Source: a virus. From it: a stretch of DNA of 22,160 nt. Positions 5,493 through 21,418 of the stretch are shown in pieces. Position 1 is the first letter of the stretch, and every line of letters begins with the position of its first letter. The notes below the pieces were generated by a model, which was not told the origin of the DNA, did not search any database, and was given only the letters and a program-made list of their open reading frames with translations. The stretch spans positions 1-22,160 of the IMG/VR virus record IMGVR_UViG_3300010151_006083. The stretch is one strand, 5' to 3'. Both the position numbers and the translations under genes were made by a program.

Positions 5493-6743
5493 ATGGCAGT
5501 AGATAAGTTGTTAGAATGGTATAATGGTGATAAAATGGCTTCGGATATTCTTAAGGAAAAATATCTTATGAAAGATGAAGAGCTTCCTAATGATATGTGG
5601 CGAAGATTAGCAAGTTCAATTGCCAAAGTAGAAAGTGACCCTGACAATAGTAATAGTGATAATGGTGTAGAAGTATATGATATGTGGAATTCAAAATTCT
5701 ACGAACTTTTAAAAGATTGGAAATTCATACCAGGGGGTAGAATTAATTATGCTGTAGGTAGAGATGAAAAAGTTAGTTGTACAAATTGTTATGTAGTTCC
5801 TATCAGAGATACTATAGATTATGAAAGTAATAATGAAATAATTGAAGCTGATTCTATTGAAGGTATATATAACTGGCTTAAAGAATCTGCATTAACATAC
5901 CGTTCAACAGGTGGTGTTGGTGTAGATATATCTGTTTTAAGGCCAAAAGGAACAAAAGTAAAAAATTCAGGGGGTGAATCTCCTGGTGCTACATCGTTCA
6001 TGGATTTAATGTCGAGGTCAACGCACACTGTCCATCAAAAACTAAGACGCGGTGCATTGATGATTACAATTAATGTTCATCACCCTGACATATTGAATTT
6101 TATAAACATAAAGAAAATCCTTGGTCAAATTAACTATGCAGAAGGTGAAGGAGATGGTTATAATGACCTTTATAAATTGGTAGAATATGCAAATATATCT
6201 GTCCTTATAACAGATGAGTTTTTGGAAGCATTAGAAAAAGAAGAAAAATATGAACAAAGATTTCCTGTCGATGTAGAAAAGCCGCAGATCAAGAAAAAAG
6301 TTTCTGCAAAAAAGATTTGGAATGCTATTGTTGAAAATGCTCATGCTCATGCTGAGCCAGGTATTCTTTTTATTGATAATCATCGTAGGAATGATAGTTT
6401 AGGTTATATTAACCCTACTATTACAACAAACCCTTGTTTTGTAGATAATACAAAACTCAAAACTTCAGATGGTTTAATAGAAATAAAAGAATTGGCTTTA
6501 ATGTATGCTAATGAAGTTAAAATGCCTAAAATACTTACATTTAATGTAGATACTAAACAATTAGAATGGGAAGAAATTATTCAGGCCGGTAAAACTGGTG
6601 AAGATAAAAATATTATAGAAATAGAAACAGATGATGGATGTATACTAAGACTCACACCAAATCACAAGATATATACAGAAAATAGAGGGTATATAGAAGC
6701 AGCTAAACTCACAGAAGAAGATATACTTATAAGTATAGAATGA
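5493..6743 (+). CDS. nrdJ: Class II ribonucleotide reductase N-half fused to N-terminal split-intein fragment
   Basis: Residues 1-314 are the N-terminal part of an adenosylcobalamin-dependent (class II) ribonucleotide reductase, which makes deoxyribonucleotides. Visible motifs are WKFIPGGRI (76-84), NCYV with the redox-active Cys99, STGGVGVDISVLRPKG (138-153), RRGALM (185-190), HHPDILNFI and AEPGILFIDN (287-296). At TTNP (311-314) the reductase breaks off and residue Cys315 starts an intein N fragment that runs to the stop. The fragment has block B TPNH (388-391 of this protein). The catalytic CGEQ continues only in the gene at 7389. The protein is therefore inactive alone and needs trans-splicing. 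TGAGGGAAAATAA precedes the ATG. The half-gene is not degenerate: the frame is clean and ends naturally after the intein fold segment. Confidence 0.93.
   Translation: MAVDKLLEWYNGDKMASDILKEKYLMKDEELPNDMWRRLASSIAKVESDPDNSNSDNGVEVYDMWNSKFYELLKDWKFIPGGRINYAVGRDEKVSCTNCYVVPIRDTIDYESNNEIIEADSIEGIYNWLKESALTYRSTGGVGVDISVLRPKGTKVKNSGGESPGATSFMDLMSRSTHTVHQKLRRGALMITINVHHPDILNFINIKKILGQINYAEGEGDGYNDLYKLVEYANISVLITDEFLEALEKEEKYEQRFPVDVEKPQIKKKVSAKKIWNAIVENAHAHAEPGILFIDNHRRNDSLGYINPTITTNPCFVDNTKLKTSDGLIEIKELALMYANEVKMPKILTFNVDTKQLEWEEIIQAGKTGEDKNIIEIETDDGCILRLTPNHKIYTENRGYIEAAKLTEEDILISIE
6435..6740 (+). other. Split intein N fragment (IntN, 102 residues)
   Basis: The fragment starts with the nucleophile Cys1 (CFVDNTKLKTSDGLIEI, block A). 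It continues with a HINT-fold strand LTFNVDTKQLEWEEI and block B CILRLTPNHKIYT, with Thr74 and His77 of the N-S shift motif. It ends with GYIEAAKLTEEDILISIE, the usual end of naturally split IntN pieces. No endonuclease domain is inserted. Length and layout match the NrdJ-1/gp41-1/IMPDH-1 class of naturally split phage inteins. Confidence 0.92.
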
Positions 6744-6746
6744 TTC

Positions 6747-6793
6747 TAATCCCTGTTTAACTTATATTTATTTATAAAAGGGGGCAGGGATTA
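6747..6793 (+). promoter_or_regulatory. Hairpin burying the homing-endonuclease start, with a late-promoter-like sequence
   Basis: TAATCCCTG (6747-6755) pairs perfectly with CAGGGATTA (6785-6793): 9 bp whose last base is the A of the ATG. The Shine-Dalgarno run AAGGGGG (6778-6784) abuts the stem inside the loop. Translation from long upstream transcripts should therefore be blocked. The loop holds TTATTTATAAAAG (6768-6780), like the T4 late promoter core TATAAATA. A transcript starting within the loop would lack the left arm and be translatable. In T4, I-TevI and related genes are regulated in just this way. The pairing is seen; the promoter role is inferred. Confidence 0.6.
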
Positions 6794-7437
6794 TGAATAG
6801 AGAATTAAATGAAGAATTAAAAAAAGAATTAGAAGAAAAATATAATGATGGATATGGATTTAAAGCTTTAGCTAAAGAGTATAATTCATCATATACAAGA
6901 ATGAGAACAGTTTTTAAAAAACTTGATATTAAACATAGAAAAGGCCGAAAAGTAGTTACTAATAGATTAAGAAAATTAAGATCAGAAAAAGCTAAAAAAG
7001 AATATGAAACAAAATCTGGTTGGTGGAGTGATAATATTGTTAGAAAAATACATAATGCAACAATTGGATATCAAGGATACTATTATAATAGAATAAGAAA
7101 AAAATATGTTTGGTTAAGAAGTTCTATAGAATATTCTTATGCTAAGTGGCTTGATAGAAATAAGATAGATTGGGATGTAGAATACAAAACATACGAAGTA
7201 AATGGAAAGTTATATAAACCAGATTTTTTTATTTTTGAAAATGGAAATCTTGTAAAAATAGTAGAAACAAAAGGTTATGATAGAAGTCGAGATTGGAAAA
7301 CCACAGAATTAAATAAGATTTTGAGTATACCAGTGGTTTTAATAGATAATATCAAATCTTATACCCAGCATTCACAGGAGACCGAAGAGTGGAAAAAAGT
7401 AAGATTAAACGAACAAGAATTAAAGCAATTAAAGTAA
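6793..7437 (+). CDS. Free-standing homing endonuclease, PD-(D/E)XK type, in the split intein gap
   Basis: This 214-residue DNA endonuclease probably cuts intein-free nrdJ alleles and so spreads the element. The N-terminal 50 residues are a charged helix plus a helix-turn-helix-like segment (DGYGFKALAKEYNSSYTRMRTVFKKL), as in other phage homing enzymes, then a basic linker. The nuclease core is YVWLRSSIEYSYAKWLD (Glu113), IDWDVEYKTYEV (Glu130), YKPDFFIF (Asp144) and KIVETKGYD (Glu158, Lys160), a PD-(D/E)XK arrangement. It is not an in-frame intein domain: it has its own start and stop. Its mRNA start is hidden in a hairpin, and its last 49 bases overlap the reductase C-half in another frame. 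Base composition is even more AT-rich than its neighbours, which fits a mobile insert. Confidence 0.87.
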   Translation: MNRELNEELKKELEEKYNDGYGFKALAKEYNSSYTRMRTVFKKLDIKHRKGRKVVTNRLRKLRSEKAKKEYETKSGWWSDNIVRKIHNATIGYQGYYYNRIRKKYVWLRSSIEYSYAKWLDRNKIDWDVEYKTYEVNGKLYKPDFFIFENGNLVKIVETKGYDRSRDWKTTELNKILSIPVVLIDNIKSYTQHSQETEEWKKVRLNEQELKQLK

Positions 7438-7514
7438 TTGAAAATGCTGATGTATACAATTTAACTACTGAAAAGAACCATAATTATTTTGCAGAAAATG
7501 TTTTAGTTAAAAAT
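7389..7514 (+). other. Split intein C fragment (IntC, 42 residues)
   Basis: Block F is VYNLTTEKNHNYFAEN (residues 22-37), and block G is VLVKN followed by the +1 Cys. The terminal Asn42 needed for cyclisation is present, but the penultimate His found in most inteins is Lys41. The basic N-terminus (KSKIKRTRIKAIK) complements the acidic IntN tail (TEEDILISIE), the charge pairing that drives association of natural split inteins. Confidence 0.9.
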
Positions 7515-8978
7515 TGTGGTGAACAATTTCTTGGAGCTTATTCAAATTGTCTTTTAGGGCATATGAATTTAAGTAAATATGTTACAAATTTAAATAGTGA
7601 TAATAAACCATTTTTTGAATTTATTAACTTTAAAGAAGATATAAAAACAGCAGTTCGTTTCATGGATAATGTGATAGATTATAATGATGGTAAGCATGCA
7701 TTGCTACAACAAAATGAAACAGCAATGAATGAGCGTAGAATCGGTTTAGGTTTTACAGGCCTTGCTGATATGTTTGTAAAATTAGGAGTAAAGTATGATA
7801 GTGATAAAGCAATAGAATTAATTGATTTAGTAATGAAAGAATTCAGGGATGCTGCATATGAAGCATCAGTGGAATTGGCAGAAGAAAAAGGTGCATTTCC
7901 TTGGTTTGAAAAAGATGAATGGTTAAAATCGGAATTTACTAAAAATTGGTATGATGAAGTTTTAGCAGGTGATTCCGAGTTAAATGAAGAAGGTTTAAAA
8001 CCTAGTGAACTATATGAAAAATTTAAAAACACTGGAATTAGAAATTCATTCCTTCTTACAGTAGCACCAGTTGGAAGTGGATCCATTATCGCTCAAGTAT
8101 CAAGTGGTCTTGAACCAATCTTTGCAACTTCCTATACACGAAGAGTTAGACAACCTGATGGCCAAAAATTCTACGAATATAAAACATATCCTAAAATCAT
8201 ATCAGAACTTTTTGGAGATGATACATCACTTCCAAATTATGTAGTTACTTCGCATGATATTGATCCCTTTTATAGAGTGAAGCTTCAAGGTGTTATTCAA
8301 AGATATATTGATAATTCAATTAGTAGTACGATTAACTTACCATCAGACACGCCGATTGATGTTGTTGCAAAAATTTATATTGATGCCTGGAAAGAAGGCC
8401 TTAAATCAACTACTATTTATCGAGATGGTTGTAGAGAAGGCGTACTTATTACAGATAAAAAATCTAAAACAGCGGAAAAAGAAGATGAAGCTAAAAAAAC
8501 TAGGCCTATCACTTTGGGAAGTAAAACGTACAAAATCCCAGACGGCCCAGACAGAAAATTATACATCACAATTAGTGGGTTTGAAAATGATCCTTATAGA
8601 CCGTTTGAAGTTTTCATACAAGCTTATGGACCCGATGATGCAGAAGTAAAGGCAATTGCAATTTTAGTTTCAGCATTACTCAGAAAATGCGAAGATATAG
8701 ATTTTCTTATAGATCATTTAGGAAAGATTGATTCGCCAAAGCAAGGTGCAATGTGGCATGATAAAGAAGCTAAGAAGAAATACTACATTAACTCTGTCCC
8801 TAGAGCAATAGGGATTGCATTGAAAAAGTTTATAAGTAATGGGCAAGATGTTATAAAGGAAAAAGATGAAGCATCACTTAATGGTGCACAATACTGTCCG
8901 AAGTGTCATGCAATAGCATTGATAAAAGAAGAAGGCTGTGAAAAGTGCCTGAATTGTGGGGCCGCAAAATGTTTCTAA
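7389..8978 (+). CDS. nrdJ: C-terminal split-intein fragment fused to class II ribonucleotide reductase C-half
   Basis: Translation starts at GTG 7389 (AGGAG 9 bases upstream, inside the endonuclease gene). Residues 1-42 are the intein C fragment; residue 43 is the +1 Cys, and from there the reductase continues CGEQFLGAYSNCLLG (Cys43 thiyl-radical residue, Glu45, Cys54 redox partner). Next come NERRIGLGFTGLADM, IRNSFLLTVAPVGSGSI (about 217-233), SSGLEPIFA, DNSISSTINLPSDTP, STTIYRDGCREGVL, and a C-terminal Cys-rich tail CPKC...GCEKCLNCGAAKCF typical of class II NrdJ. Joined to the other half it gives an 801-residue enzyme of normal length. It needs host or scavenged adenosylcobalamin. AAAGGAGGG after the stop belongs to the next gene. 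Confidence 0.93.
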   Translation: MEKSKIKRTRIKAIKVIENADVYNLTTEKNHNYFAENVLVKNCGEQFLGAYSNCLLGHMNLSKYVTNLNSDNKPFFEFINFKEDIKTAVRFMDNVIDYNDGKHALLQQNETAMNERRIGLGFTGLADMFVKLGVKYDSDKAIELIDLVMKEFRDAAYEASVELAEEKGAFPWFEKDEWLKSEFTKNWYDEVLAGDSELNEEGLKPSELYEKFKNTGIRNSFLLTVAPVGSGSIIAQVSSGLEPIFATSYTRRVRQPDGQKFYEYKTYPKIISELFGDDTSLPNYVVTSHDIDPFYRVKLQGVIQRYIDNSISSTINLPSDTPIDVVAKIYIDAWKEGLKSTTIYRDGCREGVLITDKKSKTAEKEDEAKKTRPITLGSKTYKIPDGPDRKLYITISGFENDPYRPFEVFIQAYGPDDAEVKAIAILVSALLRKCEDIDFLIDHLGKIDSPKQGAMWHDKEAKKKYYINSVPRAIGIALKKFISNGQDVIKEKDEASLNGAQYCPKCHAIALIKEEGCEKCLNCGAAKCF

Positions 8979-20689: not shown

Positions 20690-20931
20690 ATAAAGGGAAT
20701 TTAATATTACCTAATGATTTAAATACAGCAGGCATTCAACCTGATGAAATCGACCCTGCTGATGCATTAGTAGCTGTTCATAGAAGAATGGTATCATCAG
20801 AACAGGCAGTTATGACATTTCGTCAGCATTTAAATGATGTGATGATTGAAGTAGAAATGATTAAGGAATCACAAGCAAAATTGGAGAATGAGATTGAGTC
20901 TCTCAGAACGACAAAGAAAGATATATCATAA
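20686..20931 (+). CDS. Small coiled-coil hypothetical protein
   Basis: An 81-residue product beginning MNKGNLILPNDLNTAGIQPD in an ATGA overlap with the previous stop. A Pro/Asp-rich start is followed by a long helix from about residue 26 with hydrophobic heptads (VAVHRRMVSSEQAVMTF, VMIEVEMIKESQAKLENEI), probably a dimerising coiled coil. No Cys, no membrane segment. It might be a small virion, scaffold or terminase-associated protein, but I cannot tell. Its last 44 bases overlap the endonuclease gene downstream. Confidence 0.7.
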   Translation: MNKGNLILPNDLNTAGIQPDEIDPADALVAVHRRMVSSEQAVMTFRQHLNDVMIEVEMIKESQAKLENEIESLRTTKKDIS

Positions 20932-21418
20932 TGTAAAAGATTCTGAATGGGAAGAAACTAAGGAACGTTATTATGAAAAGGAAAGAGACAATGGCCATCA
21001 TTTAAAATGGTGGGCTAAAAATATGAAAACACGAGCACCACGTGATATGTCTATTGCACGAAAGAAAATGAGACGTACCGCTCCAGAAAAAGCAATGATA
21101 GAGATTCTTGAGGGATTAGGTATAGAATTTGAGGTAGAATTTCCATTAAGATTTTTAGATAGTTATAAGATATATGACTTTAGAGTTGGTAAACTACTTA
21201 TTGAAGTAGATGGTGATTATATACATGGGAATTTTGATAATGATTCAGTATCATTCAATTATATGCAAATGAAAAATAAGAAGAATGATGGTCAGAAAAA
21301 TTGGATAGCAAAGAAATCAGGCTATCAGATAATAAGATTTTGGCAATCAACTATTGAGAGAGATAAACTACTTGTGATCGAAAGGTTAAAAAAGGCAATT
21401 AATGGAAATAAAAAATAA
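20888..21418 (+). CDS. Vsr-like (EDxHD family) endonuclease, probable homing enzyme
   Basis: A 176-residue nuclease. A basic N-terminal region (KTRAPRDMSIARKKMRRTAP) is followed by a Vsr-type core: PEKAMIEILEGLGIEFEVEFP (Glu67), KIYDFRVGKLLIEVDGDYIH (Asp97, Glu106, Asp108, Asp110, His113) and KNDGQKNWIAKKSGYQIIRFW (Asp134). This E-D-x-H-D arrangement is that of the endonucleases described with fractured phage genes and of I-Bth0305I. It is free-standing, in an otherwise compact run of orphans, and overlaps genes on both sides (44 and 17 bases). ATG 20888 has GGAG only one base upstream, so initiation may rely on coupling. It may nick or cut an intron- or intein-free allele elsewhere, or a rival phage. 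A repair role like true Vsr is less likely. Confidence 0.83.
   Translation: MRLSLSERQRKIYHNVKDSEWEETKERYYEKERDNGHHLKWWAKNMKTRAPRDMSIARKKMRRTAPEKAMIEILEGLGIEFEVEFPLRFLDSYKIYDFRVGKLLIEVDGDYIHGNFDNDSVSFNYMQMKNKKNDGQKNWIAKKSGYQIIRFWQSTIERDKLLVIERLKKAINGNKK

Follow-up and report, generated by a model that had tools for sequence, protein, structure and literature searches.

In the viral fragment IMGVR_UViG_3300010151_006083 of IMG/VR, all 22,160 bases of which were analyzed (here called the window), the gene nrdJ for a class II ribonucleotide reductase (RNR) is divided between two open reading frames (ORFs), one at 5493-6743 and one at 7389-8978; another ORF, 6793-7437, lies in the gap. The two halves carry the N-terminal (IntN) and C-terminal (IntC) parts of a predicted split intein, the intervening ORF codes for an endonuclease, and sequence comparisons support reading nrdJ as a fractured gene with a split intein. 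The locus is laid out as follows.

5493-6434, plus strand: nrdJ N-terminal extein, 314 codons ending TTNP (NrdJ_Z, E=1.1e-63; ligated product against T. maritima NrdJ 1xje, E=4.5e-67).
6435-6743, plus strand: IntN, 102 residues with C1 and the block B TPNH, plus the stop codon at 6741-6743 (intein_Nterm, E=2.7e-8; with IntC against the NrdJ-1 intein structure, E=9.7e-21).
6434-6515, plus strand: polymorphic tract running from the insertion junction, with 16 of 21 differences from two near-identical contigs.
6744-6792, plus strand: endonuclease gene leader, with a predicted hairpin of AATCCCTG (6748-6755) and CAGGGATT (6785-6792) that includes the ribosome-binding site (z=-3.80, 0/200 shuffles; recurs in relatives).
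6793-7437, plus strand: free-standing PD-(D/E)XK endonuclease, 214 amino acids (invariant residues, AlphaFold2 model, Foldseek, domain profiles).
7376-7380, plus strand: Shine-Dalgarno sequence AGGAG for the C-half, within the endonuclease ORF, its position kept in several relatives.
7389-7514, plus strand: IntC, 42 residues with a GTG start, NHNYFAENVLVKN (intein_Cterm, E=5.3e-5).
7515-8978, plus strand: nrdJ C-terminal extein, 487 codons plus stop, codon 1 being the equivalent of the catalytic C322 of T. maritima (profile matches, 1xje alignment).

A sequence-only reading of this DNA had described an N-half ending NP followed by an IntN of 102 residues and a stop, a C-half opening with a 42-residue IntC that ends KN before CGEQ, and an independent endonuclease gene between them. 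All of this is borne out, with 314 extein residues ending TTNP, a C-half starting at the GTG at 7389 whose IntC ends VKN, and an endonuclease gene that lies in another frame and overlaps IntC by 49 nucleotides. IntN and IntC are in a common frame, yet 33 in-frame stops intervene, and they are therefore not one continuous intein gene broken by a single error. Two further IMG/VR contigs have the same arrangement, with ∼19 to 20 differences in 3.5 kb and an endonuclease gene identical base for base. A single frameshift or an assembly error hiding a continuous frame between 6743 and 7389 is thus excluded. Mixed-strain assembly could in principle also have joined in the endonuclease gene or a foreign IntN stretch, and the sharp polymorphic tract at 6434-6515 and a contig that ends at the junction would suit such an artefact; however, the same gene order recurs in the two further contigs and in the other 47 viral contigs described below, and we regard this as extremely improbable.

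The RNR barrel domain profile is divided between the two halves at profile position 212, and in the alignment of the predicted product with T. maritima NrdJ the break NP/C (the slash marking the break) falls on the NPCGE motif, whose C322 is the established catalytic cysteine of that enzyme. The barrel, the NPCGE motif, a redox cysteine pair, a CPKC...CLNCGAAKC C terminus, and best matches to B12-dependent enzymes identify the protein as class II NrdJ; neither half alone reaches the NCBIfam equivalog cut-offs, as expected of half-proteins. The active-site cysteines are split, with C99 (probably such a residue, by motif and position) in the N-half and C315 and C326 in the C-half. With the catalytic cysteine at +1 as well, each half alone should be inactive. 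A search for intact nrdJ in relatives, proposed with the sequence-only reading, found eight contigs (L083-L090) in which NrdJ is a single ORF of 763 to 802 residues where complete, with 59 to 63% identity to the predicted product over residues 3 to 800 of 801. In these, TTNPCGEQFLG reads straight through the predicted junction, and the joined flanks of the window match the empty sites at 48 to 55 of 72 bases. An occupied and empty pair is provided by L055 and Microcystis phage Mel-JY01, at 71% protein identity.

In profile searches of the kind proposed with the sequence-only reading, both intein parts match NCBIfam profiles above the curated cut-offs, intein_Nterm beginning at residue 315 and intein_Cterm ending at residue 43. 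Among solved structures, the NrdJ-1 intein (8ubs) is the closest. The features of a naturally split intein are present, including splicing blocks on two genes, C1, TPNH, the C-terminal Asn, and Cys at +1, and by alignment the predicted +1 splicing nucleophile is itself the catalytic cysteine of NrdJ. Ligation would yield a product of 801 residues with the junction peptide TTNPCGEQFLGAY. In the window, and likewise in its two near-copies, Lys takes the place of the usual penultimate His, and Lys or Ser also stands there in L051, L065, L068, and L038; these residues are therefore tolerated in the family. Inteins without a penultimate His can splice, and their expected efficiency is lowered with no effect on membership. 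An intron in place of the intein was also considered, and no Rfam match was found in 6350-7600 at E<=1, IntN and IntC being clear protein domains.

Two further explanations bear on whether the halves are ligated. The first is that they assemble noncovalently into an active enzyme, as reported for NrdA-a/NrdA-b of phage Aeh1, whose nrdA is split by mobE and still functions without a self-splicing intron (PMC3653736), and the penultimate Lys could weaken splicing. However, both complete splicing blocks are conserved in dozens of phages, and the break lies inside NP/CGE, where an unligated chain end, together with the additional 102 and 42 residues, would block the active site, which makes this quite unlikely. 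The second, which we consider very unlikely, is that nrdJ is decaying after an endonuclease inserted into a formerly contiguous intein. The placement of the endonuclease between the intein halves and the unusual penultimate residue agree with decay, but three contigs have every frame open and nearly the same sequence, IntN change is mostly synonymous (7 synonymous versus 4 nonsynonymous codons against L003), the catalytic and C-terminal Cys residues are intact, and both halves have their own start signals.

The endonuclease has a helix-turn-helix-like N terminus at about residues 7 to 50 (weak matches) and a catalytic domain at about residues 92 to 185. Among 33 relatives, R109, S110, E113, P143, D144, E158, and K160 are invariant, and an AlphaFold2 model built on the 33-sequence alignment, replacing a weak earlier one from 10 sequences (pLDDT 72), has a mean pLDDT of 91.5, with a helix at 111-122, strands at 134-159, and a helix at 164-176. 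The residues E...(P)D...ExK thus sit on an alpha-beta-beta-beta-alpha core, as in PD-(D/E)XK nucleases. The nearest Foldseek neighbors in the PDB are Bax1 (E=0.01, probability 0.99), TnsA, XisH-like proteins, and the R2 endonuclease, with I-Bth0305I (3r3p) lower among the matches (E=0.52), and the viral models matched include phage endonuclease I and resolvases, with E down to 3e-7 among the matches listed. Pfam profiles over the family recover NUMOD3 in 12 of 33 members, DUF790 (the Bax1 family) in 9, and Phage_endo_I in 4 (best 4.7e-10), and the I-TevI DNA-binding domain matches with E=0.0015. The EDxHD motif DGxxWH was not found in the endonuclease, and hhalign against three EDxHD-type proteins gave a probability of only 0.6%. 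The invariant residues, the fold neighbors, and the lack of an EDxHD motif or profile relation together uphold the earlier assignment to the PD-(D/E)XK class, distinct from EDxHD enzymes. One of the three EDxHD-type proteins is encoded in the window itself, by a separate free-standing EDxHD/Vsr-like ORF (EVDGDYIH) at 20888-21418.

Scans with the endonuclease alone recovered 49 viral contigs (∼33 distinct cores at 95%) and four bacterial loci. No cultured-phage relative of the endonuclease was found, the PD-ExK family extending only to the Prevotella Lak phages, weakly and outside RNR. IntN directly precedes the endonuclease in all 49 viral contigs and IntC directly follows it in 48, the remaining contig being cut off there, and all the interrupted genes are RNRs. 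Where readable, the break is at NP/C, as in the window, or one codon on, at NPC/C or NAC/S, and the +1 residue is always Cys or Ser. In the four bacterial loci (Mesobacillus, Bacillus, and an Aneurinibacillus plasmid), the endonuclease lies in an intein-less insert one codon past the catalytic Cys (NPCG or NPCA, followed by the E codon). Phage groups L057-L059 and L060 have both, a split intein at NP/C and, two codons on, an insert homologous to that of Mesobacillus. The group I-like inserts that interrupt RNR genes at the codon following the catalytic Cys have these positions.

L069, 3790-5000: group I-like insert.
L072, 3680-5050: group I-like insert.
L057, 3915-4200: group I-like insert.
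L060, 5045-5290: group I-like insert.

The group I rule fits these inserts, with U at the 5' exon end and G at the insert end, and those of L057, L060, and L069 share a conserved CGGGAACCCTG.GATGGGAATCCGAACCGAAGG. Rfam gave no match to any of the four at gathering, and none to that of L069 at E<=1 either. One endonuclease family at one target in both settings implies two kinds of splicing shelter.

Across loci, the endonucleases and inteins resemble each other much more closely than do the interrupted RNRs. Between the window and L008, identity is 56% for the endonuclease, 47% for the intein, and 23% for the RNR core, and over 187 pairs with RNR identity <35% the means are 37%, 37%, and 20%, respectively. 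Endonuclease identity correlates with that of the intein at 0.76 and with that of the RNR at 0.33, and the main groups of the endonuclease tree reappear in the intein tree. The cassette has therefore moved, on this comparative evidence, between divergent RNRs, and its endonuclease gene appears tied to a single insertion site while passing between host genes, as expected of a homing endonuclease. If the gene in the gap were instead a neutral passenger coding for a nuclease of resolvase or repair type, this would account for the distant family similarity to Bax1, Holliday junction resolvases, and phage endonuclease I. Against it stand the strict tie to one spot in divergent RNRs, the NUMOD3 modules, the occurrence in bacteria within an intron-like insert at almost the same position, and the endonucleases being more alike than their host genes, and we think this explanation unlikely. 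The population around the window is polymorphic at the same site. Of 21 differences from two near-identical contigs over 13.6 kb compared, 16 fall within 82 bases starting exactly at the extein/IntN junction, and contig L082 (100% identical) ends within ∼12 bases of that junction, a pattern that fits gene conversion or allelic variation at the homing site.

The 49-base endonuclease leader is predicted to fold over its own ribosome-binding site at -20.4 kcal/mol. Across 32 loci z averages -2.3 and is below -2 in 19, and a CCCTG/CAGGG-type stem adjoining the start codon is common to six loci, with C-G exchanged for T-A in L031. Hairpins of this kind over ribosome-binding sites have been shown for I-TevI, segB, and mobE (PMC2988022). 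The C-half has its own AGGAG, and the overlap of the endonuclease and C-half genes recurs in most loci checked. A T4-type late promoter was rejected as an explanation of the leaders, as TATAAATA is on the plus strand in only 4 of 31 (L033, L036, L044, and L057); in the window leader, a late-promoter-type motif is on the minus strand. TATTTATA occurs in 8 of 31 PD-ExK leaders, against 0.7 expected. We also note that TATAAATA or TATTTATA(N)TAA stands a short distance upstream of endonuclease genes that belong to four classes (PD-ExK, EDxHD, HNH, and GIY-YIG), at L012:5204; L014:9433 and 10919; L016:5914 and 9963; L018:2212, 5923, and 7564; and L033:7335. These motifs are possibly a shared phage promoter.

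We consider it highly probable that the nrdJ locus is a fractured-gene homing cassette composed of a split intein and a PD-(D/E)XK homing endonuclease. Two nrdJ products would be made from the single gene cluster, the C-half being translated from a separate ribosome-binding site that lies within the endonuclease gene. IntN and IntC would then associate into one Hint fold, and trans-splicing would restore the 801-residue NrdJ, neither half being an enzyme beforehand. The endonuclease presumably cuts nrdJ alleles that lack the intein, at their conserved NPCGEQ codons, and break repair would copy the intein halves and the endonuclease into the cut allele. The leader hairpin likely restrains endonuclease translation, as in T4-type homing endonucleases.

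Several observations weigh against this interpretation. With Lys in place of the usual penultimate His, C-terminal cleavage may be slowed. The scan patterns were derived from RNR-linked members, and the finding that all relatives are in RNRs is therefore partly search bias; a distant, weak endonuclease homologue in Prevotella phage Lak-B1 is outside RNR. The Foldseek matches in the PDB are at superfamily level, even the best of them (E=0.01), and mixed-strain assembly is a possible source of the polymorphic tract.

Some related loci are more elaborate than that of the window. In L029:1704-6250 and L036:2029-6519 the RNR is in four gene pieces with three different split inteins, the fractures being near GG/TGVG or RR/SACI, at NP/C, and near KPAG/TTSL or PSGSA/SCVL, with the PD-ExK endonuclease in the middle gap only; three orthogonal trans-splicing reactions would be required per enzyme. 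The RNR gene of L018:4631-9414 is fractured twice, at NPC/C with a PD-ExK endonuclease and at KPSG, where a second split intein houses an EDxHD endonuclease, and in L015:3727-5919 the N-half has an additional contiguous intein (NCFSRDTRFV...) upstream of the fracture. At L038:3690-4700 the endonuclease frame has stops at positions of conserved Trp and is open only if these are decoded, which suggests that the phage has reassigned a stop codon, probably TGA to Trp. In the cultured Campylobacter phage CPt10 (L073:2187-6254), nrdA, annotated as a disrupted gene, is fractured with IntN and IntC, two small genes of unassigned function are in the gap, and a second, contiguous intein is further along. 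The sequence-only reading had described the window's locus as being in a full genomic setting, which does not hold, the contig being a fragment rather than a whole genome; genes-in-pieces RNRs in phage genomes were also previously known (Aeh1, CPt10). The window's gene block is one for replication and nucleotide metabolism, with an exonuclease, DnaB-type helicase, nrdJ, thymidylate synthase-like protein, UDG, dUTPase, and DNA polymerase III alpha.

By its predicted anatomy, the nrdJ locus is a fractured gene of the kind described by Dassa et al. 2009, as the sequence-only reading proposed: a conserved phage enzyme gene, RNRs included, is interrupted by a split intein whose halves flank a free-standing endonuclease gene, and intact homologues exist. 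The passage of PMC3653736 that cites that study gives 7 nrdA and 2 nrdJ genes interrupted by inteins in ocean metagenomes. In contrast to the Vsr-like/EDxHD endonuclease that is the signature there, the enzyme here is PD-(D/E)XK, with ExK, at the RNR catalytic-cysteine codons. Vsr-like endonucleases are reportedly in only about half of the earlier loci, and the same PD-(D/E)XK family may thus already be among the others. The proposal that the endonuclease class differs from those reported therefore stands against EDxHD enzymes, by motif and profile, and may not hold for loci without Vsr-like enzymes.

Other known systems share parts of this arrangement. The NrdJ-1 split intein (8ubs, 9omb) is also nrdJ-derived, split at an equivalent place, and similar in total length, but its sequence has clearly diverged, and it has Ser at +1 (the site being one codon later) and a penultimate His, where the window has Cys and Lys. 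I-Bth0305I and other EDxHD homing endonucleases belong to the same nuclease superfamily and are used in phage homing, but their DGxxWH active site is absent from the window endonuclease and no profile-level family relation is seen. I-Ssp6803I, which comes from a cyanobacterial group I intron, was not among the matches listed in PDB sequence or fold searches with the endonuclease. It is a described PD-(D/E)xK homing endonuclease and shares the motif and the homing role (PMC3943268). The Aeh1 nrdA/mobE and T4 homing endonucleases (PMC2988022) are alike in placing an endonuclease in a phage RNR gene with a hairpin over the ribosome-binding site, but they are HNH or GIY-YIG enzymes, and no splicing of the Aeh1 product is reported. 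A precedent exists for one endonuclease family with two RNA intron classes in one host gene, whereas here split inteins and a group I-like insert are involved. Six homing endonuclease families are given in PMC3943268, and a 2020 intein review (PMC7765530) includes no PD-(D/E)XK type with inteins among those given; our literature searches found no PD-(D/E)XK enzyme with split inteins, although the term is not searchable as written. The endonuclease family, its tie to RNR active-site codons, and its use of both inteins and intron-like inserts appear new.

We are evenly divided on a broader proposal, that this is an undescribed PD-(D/E)XK homing family dedicated to the RNR catalytic-cysteine codons that switches its splicing shelter. 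In phages the shelter would be a split intein at either of two neighboring codons, in bacteria a group I-like intron ∼2 codons further downstream, and some phages would have both. If this is true, the splicing element would follow the endonuclease target and not the reverse, and the RNR of L029 and L036 would be encoded by four genes with three split inteins. The window's locus in itself appears to bring a further family of homing endonucleases into the fractured-gene arrangement. The loci form a natural series (occupied and empty sites, alternative splicing elements, adjacent codons, and a polymorphic population) for how an endonuclease and a splicing element meet at one site, and the same series bears on how contiguous inteins turn split. 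They are also a source of ∼30 naturally split inteins, several of which would work alongside each other within a single protein, and of nucleases that may prove site-specific for a conserved target.

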